A stretch of DNA of 64,000 nucleotides from contig NZ_AP023367.1 of NCBI RefSeq assembly GCF_014218335.1, positions 2,791,501-2,855,500 of the forward strand, given 5' to 3'. Of the stretch, positions 1,119 to 9,098 are shown piece after piece; position 1 is the stretch's first letter; each line of letters begins with the position of its first letter. This stretch comes from Anaerocolumna cellulosilytica (GTDB lineage Bacteria; Bacillota; Clostridia; Lachnospirales; Lachnospiraceae). Both the position numbers and the translations under genes were made by a program. Below the pieces are notes generated by a model. The model was not told the origin of the DNA. It did not search any database and saw only the letters and a program-made list of their open reading frames with translations.

Positions 1119-1597
1119 ATGTTAGGTGTTCCAAAATCTAAGGTTCGTTTAGTAGAACATGATGAAAAATGGGCAGAGGTGTTCGAAAAAACGAAACTGG
1201 CTCTAATAAATATTCACGGTGATAATATAGTCGATATTCAACATGTAGGTAGCACTGCGATAAAAGGTATAATTGCTAAACCCATGCTAGATATAGCGAT
1301 TCTATTTAAAAAAATATCAGACCCCGTTTTTAATGCAATGAAGAAAAGTGGATATGAGTATTATAGGTTTCTTTACAACATATACATTGTTATGAAGAAA
1401 AGCACCTTGAGCTTTTTCATGACCAGATAAAATTTAGAGATTTTATCCGTTCACATTCGGAATATGCAAAGGAGTATGAATTATTAAAGCAAGAGCTTTT
1501 TAAGATTTATTCCAATGATAGAAATAAATACACAGAAGGTAAACAAGCGTTTTTTGATAAAATAAAACAACTTGCAGATGAATACTCCGCTAAATAG
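1119..1597 (+). pseudogene. GrpB family (UPF0157) nucleotidyltransferase-like protein, frameshifted and internally deleted
   Basis: The first part (to about 1375) encodes a normal GrpB N-terminus with VxLVEHDxKW and the HVGSTAIKGIIAKP motif, which is typical of the nucleotidyltransferase-like fold. Near 1375-1382 the frame breaks: the original frame runs into a stop at 1430, while the +2-shifted frame continues with HIHCYEEKHLELF, then FRDFIRSHSEYAKEYELLK and a normal GrpB C-terminus ending at 1597. About 15-20 residues that the family has between these two halves also seem to be missing, so this is a deletion plus frameshift rather than a one-base error. GGTGC-type spacing before the ATG at 1119 is acceptable. 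The family's role is poorly known. Confidence 0.75.
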
Positions 1598-1697
1598 TAA
1601 AAGCATAATGTGCAGTTATTTTTGTTCACTATTGTTATCGAATGAGAAATGATTGCATTTTGATAAAGCCAATGAGGATTATCAGAAGTTAAGGGAT

Positions 1698-1730
1698 TTA
1701 AAATAGACTGCGAATGGCAGTCTATTTTAA
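1698..1730 (+). terminator. 14-bp perfect hairpin, homologous to the hairpin upstream of the intact arsR
   Basis: Arms 1698-1711 and 1717-1730 pair perfectly around a GAATG loop, with A-rich and T-rich flanks on the two sides. A diverged copy of the same hairpin lies at 7109-7138, in the same position relative to the intact arsR promoter, so it belongs to the duplicated arsR-cdr segment. Confidence 0.6.
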
Positions 1731-1740
1731 TAAGTATACA

Positions 1741-2085
1741 CATCCGACTCATATCGATATGTATACTATATTCAACATATCCATTAAAATAGATATGAGG
1801 TGACATTATGGACAAAATATATGAATATGAACAAAATGCTATTGTATTTAAAGCAGTACGAAAAGAGCCATATTGAAACTGCAAAGAGTATTCCACAAGG
1901 CAAATTAAGAAACGAATCATCAGAATTGGATAATGAAGAAATAGTAGTAACTTACTGTAACAAAGGTGTGACAGGTAATGCGGCCCAAAACATCCTCCTG
2001 GGTAGCGGAATGAAAAAAGTTTATAACTTATCTGGAGGCTAGTAGCATTACTGTAAGACACATGCCCAAAAATAAAAGTTAAGTT
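1741..2085 (+). pseudogene. deletion relic: arsR promoter and 5' end fused to the 3' end of a CoA-disulfide reductase/rhodanese gene
   Basis: From 1741 the sequence mirrors the region before the intact arsR at 7032: an ATATCGATAT palindrome (1750-1761), then a GAGGTGACATT leader and an ATG at 1809 reading MDKIYEYEQNAIVFKAV, nearly the N-terminus of that ArsR. At about 1848-1860 it switches to the rhodanese end of the CoA-disulfide reductase encoded at 5040-6689 (HIETAKSIP, VVTYCNKGVTGNAAQNIL, KKVYNLSGG). The two frames do not join: the arsR frame stops soon after the junction, while an 80-codon frame beginning at 1800 reads the rhodanese part and stops at 2042. Homology continues in decayed form to about 2085. 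The junction sits where both parents share AAAGCA/AAACAGTA-like bases, suggesting microhomology deletion of about 1.8 kb. Confidence 0.8.
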
Positions 2086-2191
2086 ATTGTATCAAATTAT
2101 TAATGGCGTAATTAACTGGAATATTCTTATATGGCGTTTCTAAAGCATTAAACAAAATGCAGTTTGTAGGGCAATATATGTGGAGGTTTTT

Positions 2192-2656
2192 ATGGATAGA
2201 ATGATTAGAAATTCAGCGAAGGCATTAATTATCAAAGACGGAAAGATGCTTGCAATTAAAATAAAGGACGAAAATGAAGAGTGGTACATTATGCCTGGTG
2301 GTGGACAGGAAACAGAAGAACTCCTTTCTAAAGCAGTATGTAGAGAAGTTGCTGAAGAGTTAGGAATGAATGTGGAAGCAAAAGAATTAGTTTTTGTTAT
2401 TGAAGGTGTACATGGAGAAAGATTTCATAGAGTAGACATGGTATTTTTATGTGAATATATTGGAGAAATCAAAAACTCTGTATTACATAGTGATACGAAC
2501 CAAGTGGGATTTGATTGGCTTGAGATAAAGACGCTGAATCATTTACCCCTTTACCCCTCAAGATTGCGAAGACAGATTATGAACTTATATGAGGGAAAAG
2601 AATACAAGGTATATTTAGGGAATGAAGGAATTGGAGACCCAGAAGTTACTGATTAA
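2192..2656 (+). CDS. Nudix hydrolase
   Basis: A 154-residue Nudix domain protein that should hydrolyse a nucleoside diphosphate linked to another moiety, using divalent metal. The Nudix box is complete: it begins at Gly37, with the REVAEELGM core at residues 51-59. The remainder is the expected mixed alpha/beta fold with no extra domain. I chose the ATG at 2192 because GGAGG lies 5 bases before it; an in-frame GTG at 2180 has no site of its own and would place the Shine-Dalgarno inside the gene. Substrate is not predictable. It is flanked by relic DNA on both sides, so it is probably a single-gene unit in an accessory stretch. Confidence 0.9.
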   Translation: MDRMIRNSAKALIIKDGKMLAIKIKDENEEWYIMPGGGQETEELLSKAVCREVAEELGMNVEAKELVFVIEGVHGERFHRVDMVFLCEYIGEIKNSVLHSDTNQVGFDWLEIKTLNHLPLYPSRLRRQIMNLYEGKEYKVYLGNEGIGDPEVTD

Positions 2657-2828
2657 CAAAAAATATAAAAAAGTATGTGGAATTTAGAGTTAATACCATA
2701 TGAGAAAAGCAAAACAGGAATATATCCTATAAGTTTGAAAGAGACATTGAAAGAAATCACAAGGATGTTTTAATTAATATTCATAATCAAGTATATGCTT
2801 TATGCTGGTAAGTAGATCTTAAGATACT

Positions 2829-2962
2829 TTTAGACAAATTTATGTCCGCATTATAACAATTAGACCAATTAATGTCCATATCATTATTTAGAGCGTACGG
2901 AGTATAGTGAATATAATTCGTTTAGAAAGAGTTATGTCCTTGATTTAGAAACATTTATGTCC
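2829..2962 (+). repeat. four direct copies of a 19-bp motif ending in TATGTCC
   Basis: Copies at 2829-2847, 2859-2877, 2921-2939 and 2944-2962 share the consensus TTTAGAMMAATTTATGTCC with a few mismatches. Multiple short direct repeats of this kind are known as transposase-binding sites at the ends of IS21-type and Mu-like elements. No transposase gene is nearby, so this would be an orphan element end. The assignment is inference. Confidence 0.5.
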
Positions 2963-3011
2963 CTCGAAAAGAGCAAATTTTTTTTGGTTATTTGGGGGTT
3001 ATTGTAAATAA

Positions 3012-3076
3012 AAGAGGCATGTAACTATTCGCGAAACGCAAGTTTAACGAATAGTTAAAGTGATTTTCTGCCTCTT
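3012..3076. repeat. nested inverted repeat (possible terminator or element remnant)
   Basis: Outer arms AAGAGGCA (3012-3019) and TGCCTCTT (3069-3076) enclose inner arms TAACTATTCG (3022-3031) and CGAATAGTTA (3048-3057). Both pair perfectly. The left flank is T-rich (2979-2989) but no U-tract directly follows either end, so termination is uncertain. Confidence 0.5.
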
Positions 3077-3136
3077 ACTGTTACTCATATAAAAAAAAAA
3101 ATAATGTTAAATTAAATATTTGTCAAATGTATTATA

Positions 3137-3335: not shown

Positions 3336-3503
3336 TTATAATTTATTGTTCTTATATACGATTTCATCTGGTATCCAACCTTTTATGGCGAATTGCCCCC
3401 CGGTATGTGCATCCACTTCTTGAATCCACTCGACTTCGTTGCTTGCTTTTGTAGCCAACAGCTGATTAGTGGTTCCAGACTGATATAGTGAAGCATTTTT
3501 CAT
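3336..3503 (-). CDS. small unrecognised protein translated after acr3
   Basis: A 55-codon frame beginning MKNASLYQSG and ending in DEIVYKNNKL. Its Shine-Dalgarno (AAAGGAG) lies inside the last codons of acr3 and its ATG starts 3 bases after the acr3 stop codon, which argues for real, coupled expression with the arsenite pump. The sequence is soluble and fairly hydrophilic, with Trp26 and Trp43, no cysteine and no membrane segment. I do not recognise a family. It could also be the N-terminal stub of a longer gene cut by the repeats that follow. A function in arsenic handling is only suggested by position. Confidence 0.5.
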   Translation of the reverse strand: MKNASLYQSGTTNQLLATKASNEVEWIQEVDAHTGGQFAIKGWIPDEIVYKNNKL

Positions 3504-3506
3504 TGA

Positions 3507-4586
3507 TTAATACTCCTTTTTCTTATCAATTATTTGTATTGGCTGTGGGAACCAATGTTTTGTTTTATTAACAAACTTAACAAGTAATAACATAACAGGA
3601 ACCTCTGTCAACACTCCTACCGTGCAGGCAAGTACTACCGGAGATGTTGGTCCGAAAATCGCAATTGCTACTGCCACAGAAAGTTCAAAAAAATCAGAAG
3701 CTGCAATCAGAGCTGCAGGTGCGGCTATGTTATGGGGTTGTTTTGTCCATTTGCATATCTGATACGTAAAAGTAGCTGATATAACATTTTGCAAAATAAG
3801 TGGTACAGCGATTAAAAGAACAAATAACGGCTGTGCTAAAATAATATCTCCCTGGAAGGTAAAGATAATTATAAGTGTCAATAGTAGGCCCAAGGTCGTA
3901 ATACCGTCAAATTTGGTAACAAATTTTTCATTGAGGTATTCTAGGCCTTTATTCTTAATCATAAAAGCGCGTGTAAGGAAGCCTCCAATCAATGGAACAA
4001 CTACAAATAGTACGATAGAAAATATTAGCGTATCCCAAGGAATCTGAACATTGTTAACACCTAATAAAAATCGAACTATCGGTACAAAAAGAATCAGTAT
4101 AAGAAGATCATTTATTGATACCTGTACAAGGGTATGTGCCGGATCACCCTTTGTCAGATTACTCCATACAAATACCATTGCAGTACAAGGAGCGGTACCT
4201 AATAGAACCGCACCTGTTACAAAATCTTGTGCTAAACCTGCAGGTATAAGCGCTTTAAATATCACAAGAAAGAATAATGATGCAAGCCCAAACATTAGAA
4301 AAGGTTTAATCAACCAACTACTACCGCTAGATATTACAATACCCAATGGATGTTTACCAACGTTTTTTAGTGATTGAAAATCAATCTTTATCATCATTGG
4401 ATAAATCATAATCCAAATGAGTACTGCGATGGGTATGTTTTGCCCTGCAAACTGCATTTTGCTTAAAATTTCAGGAATACCAGGTAAAAATCGTCCAATT
4501 AATATACCTGATACCATACAGAGAAGTACCCAAATAGATAGGTATTTCTCAAAAAAACCAATATCTTGTGCTTTTTCTTTTTTCAT
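3507..4586 (-). CDS. acr3: ACR3-family arsenite efflux permease
   Basis: A 359-residue integral membrane protein with about ten hydrophobic segments, the usual ACR3 size. It exports arsenite (and probably antimonite) across the cytoplasmic membrane. The family's GTAPCTAMVFVW stretch is present with Cys134 in transmembrane segment 4, the cysteine known to be essential in characterised ACR3 proteins, followed by the conserved KGDPAHTLVQVSINDL segment. A conserved Glu lies in GVLTEVPVML near the C-terminus. It follows arsR by 13 bases, so the two form an operon under ArsR control. The start at 4586 has AAAGGAG close upstream. Confidence 0.95.
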   Translation of the reverse strand: MKKEKAQDIGFFEKYLSIWVLLCMVSGILIGRFLPGIPEILSKMQFAGQNIPIAVLIWIMIYPMMIKIDFQSLKNVGKHPLGIVISSGSSWLIKPFLMFGLASLFFLVIFKALIPAGLAQDFVTGAVLLGTAPCTAMVFVWSNLTKGDPAHTLVQVSINDLLILILFVPIVRFLLGVNNVQIPWDTLIFSIVLFVVVPLIGGFLTRAFMIKNKGLEYLNEKFVTKFDGITTLGLLLTLIIIFTFQGDIILAQPLFVLLIAVPLILQNVISATFTYQICKWTKQPHNIAAPAALIAASDFFELSVAVAIAIFGPTSPVVLACTVGVLTEVPVMLLLVKFVNKTKHWFPQPIQIIDKKKEY

Positions 4587-4599
4587 TTTTATAACTCCT

Positions 4600-4947
4600 T
4601 TAATGTGGTTCTTTACTGCAATTGCATAATTCCTGTGCTTTGAATTTTCTATACGTTTCCTGATCCGATATAAAAGTTGGAAGCTTAGTTAGCTTTTGTT
4701 GCAGATAATCCCATAGCTCTTTGTTCTCCTGGATAAAATCTTTATGAACCCGATAATAGGTCCATTGAGCATTTTTGTAACTGTTGAGTATTCCGCACCT
4801 TTTTAATACTGATAGATGGCGAGAAGCATTGGATTGTGTCATTTTAAGACATGATTCAATTTCACAAACACACAATTCACCGTCCCATATTAACGAAAGT
4901 ATCCGTAATCTACTTTCTTCAGATAAGGCCTTAAAGATTTCTACCAT
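4600..4947 (-). CDS. arsR: ArsR/SmtB-family arsenite-responsive repressor
   Basis: A winged-helix repressor of 115 residues. The arsenic-sensing motif ELCVCEIE places Cys26 and Cys28 in the usual helix-3 position, with Cys33 five residues later, and the recognition helix reads MTQSNASRHLSVLKRCGIL. Further cysteines sit in the tail (CNCS). It is the first gene of the arsR-acr3 unit and should repress it until arsenite or antimonite binds. AGGAGG precedes the ATG at 4947. Candidate operator repeats lie immediately upstream at 4971-5001. It is only distantly similar to the second ArsR at 6706-7032. Confidence 0.93.
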   Translation of the reverse strand: MVEIFKALSEESRLRILSLIWDGELCVCEIESCLKMTQSNASRHLSVLKRCGILNSYKNAQWTYYRVHKDFIQENKELWDYLQQKLTKLPTFISDQETYRKFKAQELCNCSKEPH

Positions 4948-5039: not shown

Positions 5040-6689
5040 TTATTTCTTATTTTTAGTATGTATCTTGCTGTATTGCATTTGGCCGCCGGATAGGTTATAT
5101 ACTTTTTTCAAGCCTCTGCCTATGAGAATGTTTTGGGCTGCATTACCTGTCACACCTTTATTACAGTAAGTTACCACTACTTCTTCTTGATCTATCTCAG
5201 ATAATTCGATTCTTAATTTGGAATGGGGAATACTTTTTGCAGTTTCAATATGGTTCTTATCATACTGTTTTACTACTCTAGCATCTATCAAGGTATACTT
5301 TTCGCCGGATTCAATTAGTTCATCCAATCCCTGTGCAGTCATCAAGGCTCTGCCATTATGAATTGCATTGTCAAGTATCATACCAGTATACATTACCGGA
5401 TCTTTTGTTGTTGAAAAAGGTGGTGCATATGCTAAATCCAGATGGAACAGATCTTCTACATTCGCTTTAAATGTGATTGCGGTTACAAATACATCAATTC
5501 TTTTATCTACACCCTCATATCCAATAATTTGTGCCCCAAGAAGTCTGCCGGTTACCTTATCAGCAATCCCCTTAATTACCATTTCTTTGCCACCCATATA
5601 ATCCGGTTTATTTGGTTTTATATTATGGCATACTACAACATCATATCCTAGTTCGTGTGCTTCTCGTTCTGAAAGACCTGTTTGTGCTACTGTCTTATCA
5701 AATATTTTAAAGATTCCTGTACCGAGAACTCCTCTAAATTCAAGATTGCCTCCTGTTATGTTATCTCCAGCTATTCTTCCAGTTTTATTGGCGGTAGAAC
5801 CTAAGGGTCTATAAACAGGTTTACCGGTCACTACATGAAATTGCTCAATACAATCTCCACAGGCATAGATATTTTTTAGGTTGGTCTCCATTTTGCTATT
5901 TACCTTAATGGCACCCGTTACTCCAAGTTCGATACCTGCCGCTTTTGCCAGTTCAATATTTGGCCGAACGCCCGTAGATAGCAGGACCATATCAGCTGTT
6001 AGCTTTGTATCATCTGATAATATTACATGGTTTTCAGAAATCTCTTTTACCGAGATATCTGTCATCACGGATATATCTTTATGTCTTAGATGTTCTTCAA
6101 CATAGACAGCCATATCAGAATCCAACCCAGGAGTAACCTGTGATAATCTTTCTATTAATGTTGTGCTCATTCCAATATTTTTTAAGTTTTCACACACTTC
6201 TAAACCAATAAATCCGGTACCAACAATCACTGCGGATTGTGGATGATAGCTATCGATATAATCCTTAATACGATTCATATCATTTATGTTGCGTAATGCG
6301 AATACATGTTTAAAGTCAGTACCTTTTATAGGTGGAATAACTGCTCTTGCTCCTGTAGAAAGTACCAGCTGGTCATAATAATCTGTAAACACCTCATCCG
6401 TTAAAAGGTTTCTAATCGTTATTTCTTTCTCATCTGGATGGATAGACAAAACTTCATGAAGTGTATAGATATCTACGTTATATTTACTTTTGAAGAAAGC
6501 TGGATCACGTGGAGTCAGTGTATCAGCATTTTCAATCTCTTCCCCGATATAATAAGGCATACCACAACCGGAGTAAGATATAAAGGTATCCTTTTCATAT
6601 ATTATAATTTCTGAATCTTCACTATTTCTTCTGGCTTTTGCTGCAGCGGATGTTCCAGCAGCTACAGCACCGATTATAATAATTCGCAT
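5040..6689 (-). CDS. cdr: CoA-disulfide reductase / NADH oxidase with C-terminal rhodanese domain
   Basis: A 549-residue pyridine nucleotide-disulfide oxidoreductase fused to a rhodanese domain. The N-terminal FAD-binding GAVAAGTSAAA motif, the redox Cys42 in SYSGCGMPYY, a second NAD-binding GTGFIGLEVCENL motif and the FAD-binding ACGDC segment are all present. Residues from about 455 form the rhodanese domain, with Cys509 in YCNKGVTG. The family reduces CoA-disulfide, persulfide or polysulfide with NAD(P)H. I chose the ATG at 6689, which has AGGAGG 7 bases before it, rather than a longer frame from 6737 that would overlap arsR further. It follows arsR by 16 bases, so expression is probably coupled to that repressor; a thiol or persulfide role in the arsenic response is plausible but inferred. 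A truncated relic of this gene lies at 1860-2085. Confidence 0.92.
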   Translation of the reverse strand: MRIIIIGAVAAGTSAAAKARRNSEDSEIIIYEKDTFISYSGCGMPYYIGEEIENADTLTPRDPAFFKSKYNVDIYTLHEVLSIHPDEKEITIRNLLTDEVFTDYYDQLVLSTGARAVIPPIKGTDFKHVFALRNINDMNRIKDYIDSYHPQSAVIVGTGFIGLEVCENLKNIGMSTTLIERLSQVTPGLDSDMAVYVEEHLRHKDISVMTDISVKEISENHVILSDDTKLTADMVLLSTGVRPNIELAKAAGIELGVTGAIKVNSKMETNLKNIYACGDCIEQFHVVTGKPVYRPLGSTANKTGRIAGDNITGGNLEFRGVLGTGIFKIFDKTVAQTGLSEREAHELGYDVVVCHNIKPNKPDYMGGKEMVIKGIADKVTGRLLGAQIIGYEGVDKRIDVFVTAITFKANVEDLFHLDLAYAPPFSTTKDPVMYTGMILDNAIHNGRALMTAQGLDELIESGEKYTLIDARVVKQYDKNHIETAKSIPHSKLRIELSEIDQEEVVVTYCNKGVTGNAAQNILIGRGLKKVYNLSGGQMQYSKIHTKNKK

Positions 6690-6705: not shown

Positions 6706-7032
6706 CTATTCACAATCACATGATTCATCCATGTCAATTAATATAGCTGCTTGCATGATGTCTTGTAATAAACTATTAGCTTTTGCAAATCCCTTTTGTC
6801 TGAGAGAATAATTCATCCATTTACCTTCTCTTCTACAATTTATTAATCCTGATTCACATAAAAGTTTCATATGATGAGATAAGGTTGATTGGGATATATT
6901 CATTTCCTCTAATAAATCGCATGCACATTTTTCTCCGCTTTTTAATAGGCCAATTATCATTAATCTATTGGAGTCGCACAATGCTTTAAATACAATAGCA
7001 TTTTGCTCATATTCATACATTTTATCATCCAT
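6706..7032 (-). CDS. ArsR/SmtB-family repressor of the CoA-disulfide reductase gene
   Basis: A 108-residue winged-helix protein with the motif EKCACDLLEE (Cys36, Cys38), the recognition helix ISQSTLSHHMKLL and a C-terminal Cys105-Asp-Cys107 pair. The spacing of the two cysteine groups would allow a thiolate metalloid or persulfide-sensing site; which of these applies cannot be decided from sequence. It heads a two-gene unit with the disulfide reductase. A GAGGTG Shine-Dalgarno precedes the ATG. The upstream paired palindromes at 7053-7091 are likely its operator. The 5' end of a former paralogue survives in the relic at 1809-1860. Confidence 0.92.
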   Translation of the reverse strand: MDDKMYEYEQNAIVFKALCDSNRLMIIGLLKSGEKCACDLLEEMNISQSTLSHHMKLLCESGLINCRREGKWMNYSLRQKGFAKANSLLQDIMQAAILIDMDESCDCE

Positions 7033-7108: not shown

Positions 7109-7138
7109 AAAAATAGACTTTCAATGCAGTCTATCTTT
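7109..7138 (-). terminator. hairpin between the GNAT gene and the arsR-cdr promoter
   Basis: ATAGACT (7113-7119) pairs with AGTCTAT (7128-7134), followed on the minus strand by TTTTTC. It would end transcription of the MarR-arsM-GNAT unit. A better-preserved homologue is at 1698-1730. Confidence 0.5.
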
Positions 7139-7144
7139 AAACGA

Positions 7145-7642
7145 TTAGTTTCCTACTTTGCCGCTTCTTCTTTCTACTAATACAACATCATGCCATTTAC
7201 CATTATCCATCTTACCAAGTTTCTCTCTATAACCAATCTCTCTGAAGCCACATTTCTTATGTAAATTTAGGCTAGCAACGTTCTCTCTGATTATACCTGA
7301 TTGCAGTGTCCAATAGCCTTTATCTTCAGACAATCTAATAAGTTTATTTAAAAGTACTGTCCCAACTTTCTGGCCACGGCTTTCAGGAGATATGTAGATA
7401 CTAAGTTCAGCCACCCCTGCGTACACACAACGGCTGGAAACTGGAGATAATGCAGCCCACCCAAGTATTGTATCTCCTTTTCTTGCAACTAACCGGCATT
7501 CCCTGCAATGTCCGTTATTCCAATCTTCCCAACTTGGCGCTAAATTTTGAAATGTTGCTATTTTCGTATTGATTCCTTCCATATAGATAACAGCAATTTG
7601 GTCCCAATCAGTATCCTTCATCTCATCTATAATATAGTCCAT
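7145..7642 (-). CDS. GNAT acetyltransferase of the phosphinothricin/ArsN1 type
   Basis: A 165-residue GNAT protein. Its layout (DWDQIAVIY start, ATFQ...EW..H....RLVA, GWAALSPVSSR, AELSIYISPESRGQKVGTVLL acetyl-CoA loop, HKKCGFREIGYREKLG) matches the PAT/bar family. In arsenic operons this family is known as ArsN1, which acetylates arsinothricin; here the context of arsM remnants and ars genes supports that assignment. I place the start at the ATG at 7642, with AAGGAG 9 bases upstream; the same frame stays open back into the arsM relic to 7693 but those codons look like arsM debris. A paralogue lies at 8598-9098. Substrate is inferred from family and neighbours. Confidence 0.85.
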   Translation of the reverse strand: MDYIIDEMKDTDWDQIAVIYMEGINTKIATFQNLAPSWEDWNNGHCRECRLVARKGDTILGWAALSPVSSRCVYAGVAELSIYISPESRGQKVGTVLLNKLIRLSEDKGYWTLQSGIIRENVASLNLHKKCGFREIGYREKLGKMDNGKWHDVVLVERRSGKVGN

Positions 7643-7655
7643 CTTCTTTGTCTCC

Positions 7656-7954
7656 TTATTTATATGTCTTAACATGCGCACCGGCAAGTACATCTATGCC
7701 TCCGCCACTAACTAAATCTAAAACACTTCACATGGTTGTAAGTTAGCTAGCACAAGAGGATTTGCACAGCCTAACACATTTATGGCTTCCACTGGCAACC
7801 CTTTGATAAACTCTTCTGAATAAGTAACAGATTCCTTAGTAATATCTCCATAGCAAGACTCTTCACATACACAGGAATTATCAGTATCTTTATTTACTTT
7901 CCTGGTAATACCACCGTAATACTAGTTGATTTCATCCTTCTTGCTTTTAGACAT
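7656..7954 (-). pseudogene. arsM: truncated arsM (arsenite S-adenosylmethionine methyltransferase)
   Basis: A good Shine-Dalgarno (GGAGGT) and ATG at 7954 start MSKSKKDEIN, typical of ArsM, but codon 11 is a stop. Reading through it gives YYGGI, VNKDTDNSCVCEESCYGDI with the N-terminal cysteines, then SVTYSEEFIKGLPVEAI and LGCANPLVLANL. After a frameshift near 7730 comes VLDLVSGGGIDVLAGAHV, the decayed S-adenosylmethionine-binding loop (normally LDLGSGGGIDV). The gene then ends at 7656, having lost about two thirds of its length, including the rest of the methyltransferase domain. The next gene's start overlaps the ruins. The organism has therefore lost arsenic methylation at this site while keeping efflux. 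Confidence 0.8.
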
Positions 7955-7991
7955 ACAAGCACCTCCTACTATTTTTCATTTTATAGAATAC

Positions 7992-8432
7992 TTAGCAACA
8001 CCTGTTTGCTTCAACTGCACACGTTAGTAGTTGCAGGCTTTCTAATACCTGATTCCTTTTATCCTCCGGAACGGAACTAAAAATGCTTTGATAATAGCTA
8101 TTCATACTTTCTTCTGTGTTTTTAAACACAGTTCTTCCATTATCCGTTAACTGAATGATTACATACCGTCTATTTTCCATATCCAATTCCCTAAGGACTA
8201 GATCAGCTTCAACAAGATTGTTTATCGTTCGGCTCATAGTACTTTTATCCAGTCCCAATAAATCAGCTAACTCCACTAAAGTTATTCTTCCTCTTCTACC
8301 AATCTCAACAATGGCATGACACTGCGCTATACTTATACCACAGCAAGAGGCATCACTTTTTTCTAAAATACCTAAATCTCTGACTAAAATTCTTAGAAGT
8401 TCTCTTAATACATTATTTCCTCTGGTTTCCAT
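7992..8432 (-). CDS. MarR-family regulator with cysteine pairs
   Basis: A 146-residue winged-helix regulator with the MarR recognition segment LADLLGLDKSTMSRTINNLV and the wing DMENRRYVIIQLTDNG. Unusual cysteines stand out: Cys30-Cys31 and Cys38 near the dimer/ligand region and Cys145-Cys146 at the very end. Because it stands directly before the arsM relic, ArsN-like gene and the arsR-acr3 genes, thiol-based sensing of arsenicals is a reasonable guess. I use the ATG at 8432, with GAGGTG 6 bases upstream; a GTG at 8441 lies inside that Shine-Dalgarno. Autoregulation is likely through the overlapping palindromes at 8460-8482. Confidence 0.88.
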   Translation of the reverse strand: METRGNNVLRELLRILVRDLGILEKSDASCCGISIAQCHAIVEIGRRGRITLVELADLLGLDKSTMSRTINNLVEADLVLRELDMENRRYVIIQLTDNGRTVFKNTEESMNSYYQSIFSSVPEDKRNQVLESLQLLTCAVEANRCC

Positions 8433-8597: not shown

Positions 8598-9098
8598 TCA
8601 ATATATAATCTGGCTTCGCCTTTCGAGCAGTAAGGTATTAATCCATTCACCAGTCAAGGTTTTTCCGATCTTTTCACGATAACCAACTATTCGAAAGCCG
8701 TGCTTTTCGTGGAGTTTCACACTGGCCATATTGGACTCAAAGATTGCAGATTGGAGCGTCCAAAAACCGAATTCTTCGGATTTGTTTATCAATTCTGATA
8801 TTAAAAGGCTGCCAATGCCTTTTCCTCTATAATCCTCATGTATATAAATACTTACTTGAGCAACCCCCTTGTATACCAGGCGATTACTAAAGGGTGTTAA
8901 GGCAACCCAGCCGATTATCCTATTATTCTGTTCTGCTACTATTCTACATTCCTTTAGATGACCACTATCCCACTCCTTATACTCAGGTATCTCTGTCTGA
9001 AAAGTGGATTCGCCTGTGATTAAAGCTTGCTCGTATATCACTGCAACCTGTTCCCAGTCTGTTGGTTGCATTTCTCTTAATGTTATTGTATGATTCAT
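8598..9098 (-). CDS. GNAT acetyltransferase of the phosphinothricin/ArsN1 type (paralogue)
   Basis: A 166-residue GNAT with the same architecture as the protein at 7145-7642: TDWEQVAVIYEQALITGESTFQ, GHLKECRIVAEQ, GWVALTPFSNRLVYKGVAQVSIYI, the acetyl-CoA loop EDYRGKGIGSLL and HEKHGFRIVGYREKIG. The two proteins match at roughly half their positions by eye. It carries its own terminator, so it is a separate unit just before the marR operon. AGGAG precedes the ATG at 9098. A role in acetylating an amino-acid-like arsenical or herbicide-type compound is inferred from family and location; general N-acetyltransfer is the safe statement. Confidence 0.87.
   Translation of the reverse strand: MNHTITLREMQPTDWEQVAVIYEQALITGESTFQTEIPEYKEWDSGHLKECRIVAEQNNRIIGWVALTPFSNRLVYKGVAQVSIYIHEDYRGKGIGSLLISELINKSEEFGFWTLQSAIFESNMASVKLHEKHGFRIVGYREKIGKTLTGEWINTLLLERRSQIIY

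Follow-up and report, generated by a model that had tools for sequence, protein, structure and literature searches.

Arsenic-resistance operons of relatives and of the window

The closest described counterparts of the locus studied here are the arsenic-resistance operons of G014 (locus L019) and of Clostridium sp. KNHs205 (L075, which gives the same matches as the G012 locus). Both contain the three sequence blocks of the relic described below, in the same order and at 79.7 to 84.9% identity to it. Unlike the relic, they carry full genes between the blocks, and each genome has a single copy of this type. They are syntenic, at 87% identity, with the fuller operon of the window (the whole stretch of 64,000 nucleotides from Anaerocolumna cellulosilytica that was analysed). 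The G014 operon keeps arsD-arsA, whereas the G012 operon lacks them. Like the relic, the ars cluster of G009 (L021) is gutted: cdr residues 30 to 51 are followed by 36 bases and then by acr3 residues 295 to 337, with about 2.8 kb lost between the cdr and acr3 pieces and about 0.1 kb before. In contrast to the relic, its arsR, arsD and arsA are whole and the deletion endpoints are different. Two cdr loci also occur on a contig of Galacturonibacter soehngenii (L077 and L101, about 14 kb apart; their proteins are 78% and 64% identical to Cdr of the window), but this pair is near full length, on the same strand and more diverged than the pair in the window. Among the matches listed for the family sample, G181 was the only genome with two hits that both lie in cdr, and the first of these gives the same match to the relic as L077.

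Titles and opening lines of abstracts on Anaerocolumna and arsenic contained nothing on such a relic. For ars operon pseudogenes with arsR and rhodanese, only an Acidithiobacillus genome paper surfaced in the portions of the literature that were seen.

The fuller operon of the window lies on the minus strand and is a syntenic orthologue of the G014 operon (87% over 3.66 kb), with MarR, GNAT, arsR, cdr, arsR2 and acr3 genes in the same order. The first arsR (6706 to 7032, profile matches), the second arsR (4600 to 4947, Pfam and NCBIfam profile matches) and acr3 (3507 to 4586, TIGR00832 above its cut-off) are intact. So is cdr (5040 to 6689), which matches profiles for Pyr_redox_2, dimerisation and rhodanese domains; CoA-disulfide reductase models match it below their cut-offs. 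The GNAT acetyltransferase gene (7145 to 7642) is nearest to ArsN1 family A, with 135.6 bits, below the cut-off of 170.

The original prediction had called this neighbouring copy intact, which turned out to be incorrect, as most of arsM and of arsD-arsA is gone through internal deletion. Comparison with G012 identified an arsM remnant at 7656 to 7954 (minus strand), which comprises about the first 90 and about the last 10 codons; about 514 bp are deleted relative to G012, with a 2-base overlap. The remnant has stops inside; its neighbours are the MarR gene on one side and the ArsN1-like acetyltransferase gene on the other. At the other end of the operon (3336 to 3503, minus strand), the start codons of arsD are fused to about the last 50 codons of arsA, with about 2.03 kb deleted relative to G014. 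The resulting open reading frame is a 55-codon chimera in which the ribosome-binding site and start of arsD are joined in frame to the arsA tail; its NCBIfam ArsA tail match is well below the cut-off.

Remains of a second operon

A blastn search with positions 1500 to 2400 as query against the whole window yielded three blocks of homology to the fuller operon. Positions 1697 to 1855 match 7141 to 6982 (minus strand, 132/164 identical, 80%, E = 5e-33), 1836 to 2090 match 5284 to 5034 (minus strand, 203/255, 80%, E = 6e-58), and 2111 to 2174 match 4503 to 4440, which is part of acr3 (49/64, 77%, E = 2e-7). Beyond these blocks and a self-match of the hairpin (E = 6e-7), the next-best match in the window had an E value of 0.17. 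The three blocks are collinear with the operon order of the window copy, G012 and G014.

The first two blocks confirm the proposal that two ends of an arsR-cdr pair were kept and the middle was lost, and aligning the relic with the reverse complement of the fuller copy gave the predicted two blocks and large gap. Relic and fuller copy are on opposite strands, tail to tail, and thus form the inverted pair that had been described. A former second copy was also correctly recognised, but its extent had been limited to arsR-cdr, and an acr3 piece comes next in order. Because G014 and G012 have the three blocks in identical order, the lost copy, as read from these blocks, extended at least from the hairpin into acr3, with arsR, cdr and arsR2 in between, and was arsR-cdr-arsR2-acr3 or larger.

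All pieces of the relic, assigned by blastn and alignment, are on the plus strand. The arsR part (1808 to 1855) covers the first 16 codons, that is, the start codon at 1808 and 15 further codons (MDKIYEYEQNAIVFKA); the frame continues for six codons to a stop at 1874 to 1876 and is closed after 22 codons. It is followed by the 3' end of cdr (1854 to 2090), the gene for a CoA-disulfide-reductase-like protein, from the rhodanese domain. In the 102-position Pfam model this piece starts around position 24, so the beginning of the domain is missing. It runs for 62 codons (1854 to 2039) up to a TAG at 2040, after which a decayed tail and spacer follow. Twenty bases (2091 to 2110) separate the cdr block from an internal piece of the arsenite efflux permease gene acr3 (2111 to 2174, about codons 29 to 49), which is without a start.

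Upstream of arsR, folding predicted a hairpin at 1698 to 1730 (plus strand, -18.6 kcal/mol, z = -6.5). In the fuller copies, its counterpart sits between arsR and the acetyltransferase gene upstream; alignments recovered the hairpin in G014, G012 and G009 and at 7109 to 7138 of the window. The alignment with 7109 to 7138 bears out the suggestion that the unit took in the spacer. By its position only, the relic hairpin may be called terminator-like; a terminator scan scored neither copy of it in the window.

The arsR promoter of the relic, CCGACT-17-TATATT (1744 to 1772, plus strand), is degraded to 8/12 consensus matches, with a damaged -35 box. In the same register, the fuller copy has TTGACA-17-TATGAT (11/12), and G014 and G012 have all 12 consensus bases. 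A promoter scan of 1600 to 2260 returned 3 sites, against 3.4 expected from shuffling, with none in the relic leader; the scan of the intact leader picked up its 11/12 site. The operator (1750 to 1787, plus strand) was read from the sequence as two half-sites, CATATCGATATG (1750 to 1761) and CATATCCATTAA (1776 to 1787). It had been described as a retained palindrome, which is true of one half-site; the other is altered, as is the -35 box. Counted by hand, 8/12 positions of the relic operator are symmetric, compared with 12/12 in the intact copy, 10/12 in G012 and 9/12 in G014, a measure that is weak alone.

On its left, the relic borders on the end of a VOC (glyoxalase-like) gene, and homology to the operon starts at the hairpin. 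The last bases of this gene and its downstream flank (1651 to 1691, plus strand) are 90% identical over 41 bases to G009 (L058 7783 to 7743). The G009 match holds the last 13 bases of the open reading frame 7771 to 8157 plus flank, and this frame reaches 20.7 bits with Pfam Glyoxalase, barely above the cut-off of 20.6. The right edge is at 2172 to 2174, where an unrelated NUDIX gene segment starts (2172 to 2661, plus strand, Pfam NUDIX, 97% to G008, L056 9725 to 9236). Its counterpart in G008 is not preceded by an ars operon.

The first deletion in the relic measures 1,716 bp, both with the window's own copy and with G014 as template; the missing stretch had been put at about 1.8 kb. It took out the sequence after codon 16 of arsR up to the rhodanese end of cdr. 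A second deletion of about 0.5 kb, reaching from cdr to mid-acr3, eliminated arsR2 and the start of acr3. The right end was cut where the NUDIX segment now starts. As for the mechanism, microhomology had been put forward, but the exact overlap at the arsR-cdr join is just two bases, CA, which is at chance level (P of an overlap of at least 2 bases, 0.19 to 0.20 among random position pairs). Moderate support comes from an imperfect 20-base repeat, ATGCTA..GTA..AAA.CA, at both endpoints of this deletion; its score was reached by 0.035% of random pairs with the window template and by 1.8% with the G014 template, in a test that was post hoc. The exact junction bases are uncertain because the templates have diverged. 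Together with the arsD-arsA and arsM junctions of the fuller copy, the arsR-cdr junction belongs to three measurable joins that each overlap by 2 bases, each alone at chance level (P = 0.19 to 0.20). The relic deletion likely occurred at a short imperfect repeat, and illegitimate recombination at such repeats may have produced the relic deletions once the copy was dispensable.

On these grounds, the relic is very probably an inert remnant of a second arsR-cdr-arsR2-acr3 arsenic-resistance operon, which was lost by internal deletions and a cut at the right end; no product would be made from it. The disabling lesions are the 1,716 bp deletion, the deletion of about 0.5 kb, the truncation and the loss of the -35 box. 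Over the 62 rhodanese codons, changes found only in the relic fall on codon positions 1/2/3 in a ratio of 6/3/10, and those found only in the intact copy in a ratio of 0/0/8, so constraint was relaxed on the relic branch (positions 1 and 2 versus 3, Fisher P = 0.026, with small counts). The lean of the relic towards position 3 (10/19, compared with about one third under neutrality) suggests that the branch was partly functional or that some constraint persists. Also against complete inertness, the 62 rhodanese codons still form an open stretch with the CNKG active-site motif. Elsewhere in this genome, at 4.98 Mb and close to a TrbL conjugation gene, there is another ars operon, arsR-acr3-arsD-arsA-arsC (arsD named by its likeness to that of G014, arsC by an LMWPc match), and loss of the relic copy would therefore have been tolerable.

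It is highly improbable that the relic still works, either as a decoy operator or through a small rhodanese open reading frame. One half-site is a perfect 12-base palindrome on its own, and the rhodanese stretch of 62 codons is open. However, degradation has affected the second half-site and the -35 box (8/12 positions symmetric by hand count, promoter 8/12), the first part of the rhodanese domain is gone, and the listed open reading frame begins with the GTG at 1800, within a GAGGTGA that resembles the former ribosome-binding site of arsR. The relic as a natural fused gene was also considered and rejected, as no match elsewhere spans the arsR-cdr join: it was spanned in none of the 14 other genus genomes, in none of the matches listed for the family sample of 397 and in no plasmid or phage record.

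Age and origin of the second copy

A recent lineage-specific duplicate can be rejected, since the relic is 80% identical to its neighbour, less than the 82 to 85% to G014 and G012 (two long blocks) and less than the 87% between the intact copy and G014. Over 186 bases of the rhodanese part, the distances are 15.1% between relic and G014, 16.7% between relic and neighbour and 9.1% between neighbour and G014. In a rhodanese tree of 16 sequences, relic, neighbour, G014 and G012 group together with a support of 98. Within this group, AU tests rejected none of three orders (relic with neighbour, P = 0.41; relic basal, P = 0.50; relic with G012/G014, P = 0.53). Support within the group was 10 to 38 in a concatenated tree, except for G012 with G014 at 96; this tree places the G009 row, which consists of the leader block only, beside the relic. 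These comparisons would date the split of the relic from its neighbour to about the time when the species G000, G012 and G014 split.

Two histories are compatible with an inert operon remnant as the best explanation. The original prediction proposed a local inverted duplication in this lineage, followed by decay. The inverted arrangement stands and the copies are 3 to 5 kb apart; moreover, relic and window copy share 13 sites versus G014 and G012, with 3 conflicting, in an unrooted comparison. The 13 common sites are, however, compatible with any root position, the relic differs more from its neighbour than from G014, neighbour and G014 are closer to each other, and an extra arsR codon of the neighbour (MDDK) is missing from the relic, G014 and G012. 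With 80% identity to the neighbour and all three orders surviving the AU test, we consider this duplication possible but lean against it. It had also been suggested that related genomes might hold both copies intact. We found no such case: two full copies of this type, defined by 68% identity or more, occur in none of the 15 genus genomes, some of which are only 63 to 81% complete.

Separate acquisition, in which an ars operon from a related strain landed beside the resident one, has a chance just short of even. Both edges of the relic adjoin pieces known elsewhere (the VOC end similar to G009, the NUDIX segment 97% identical to G008), and the further ars operon of the same genome lies near a conjugation gene. 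Against this, no donor closer than G012 and G014 was found in the genomes, phages or plasmids sampled. The search covered the 14 other genus genomes and the matches listed for the family sample of 397 genomes, which includes the own genome and had two candidates scored per listed genome. Phages gave no match, and plasmids gave two Enterococcus records with 72 to 74% over 116 bases.

Gene loss across ars clusters of the genus

We compared six clusters (the relic, the window copy, G012, G014, G009 and G006) and counted eight internal deletions in four of them, from three genomes. Two are in the relic, two in the window copy and the remainder in G009 and G012; in G012, two deletions, one of about 1.5 kb and one of about 0.5 kb, reduced arsD-arsA (sizes by arithmetic from coordinates). 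The G014 and G006 clusters had no internal deletion in the parts compared, and G014 is without arsM. It seems unlikely that the genus has a deletion hotspot in its ars clusters, with the operon middle removed repeatedly and the ends kept, perhaps at short imperfect repeats and favoured by a second arsA operon. Kept ends are the outcome of any internal deletion, and the pattern alone calls for no special mechanism.

Redundancy may have contributed to the loss of arsD-arsA. In G000 and G012, arsD-arsA are lost from this cluster and a complete arsA is present elsewhere in the genome; G014 keeps arsD-arsA and has no other arsA; in G009, arsD-arsA are kept and a second copy is decayed. G006 counts against the idea, as its only arsA is broken. 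This is a tally over five genomes and not a test, it leaves out arsA genes with at least 68% identity in G002, G003, G004, G008, G010 and G011, and we regard it as suggestive only. The broken arsA of G006 (L022 10694 to 12401) is in three overlapping pieces, one of them with a stop, and the second, broken arsA of G009 (L061 7423 to 8134) is located about 20 kb from the complete one.

Ordinary decay of an operon most likely produced the relic, and more of its stages can be recognised than had been described originally. For annotation, this means that 1800 to 2042 should not be labelled a rhodanese gene and that 3336 to 3503 and 7656 to 7954 are leftovers of arsA and arsM. Within the genus, one operon can be seen at several stages of gene loss, which could make it useful for testing whether redundancy drives such loss.

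Further observations concern the surroundings of the two copies. The region 2660 to 3120 as an insertion sequence gained no support, because it has no second copy in its own genome. A hairpin sequence at 3017 to 3057 occurs once in the window, and from 3023 on, 32 to 44 bases match eight other genus genomes at 88 to 100% identity. Acetyltransferase paralogues at 7145 to 7642 and 8598 to 9098 (minus strand) flank the MarR gene, and the latter is about 50% identical to the G014 version of the former. To the left of the relic, a GrpB-family gene (1119 to 1597, plus strand) carries a frameshift near 1370 to 1430, and its C-terminal half continues in another frame. The short stretches 1013 to 1071 and 1651 to 1691 are conserved in G009 around different genes, with GrpB between them here and an acetyltransferase and a glyoxalase in G009, as if the genes between fixed ends had been exchanged.
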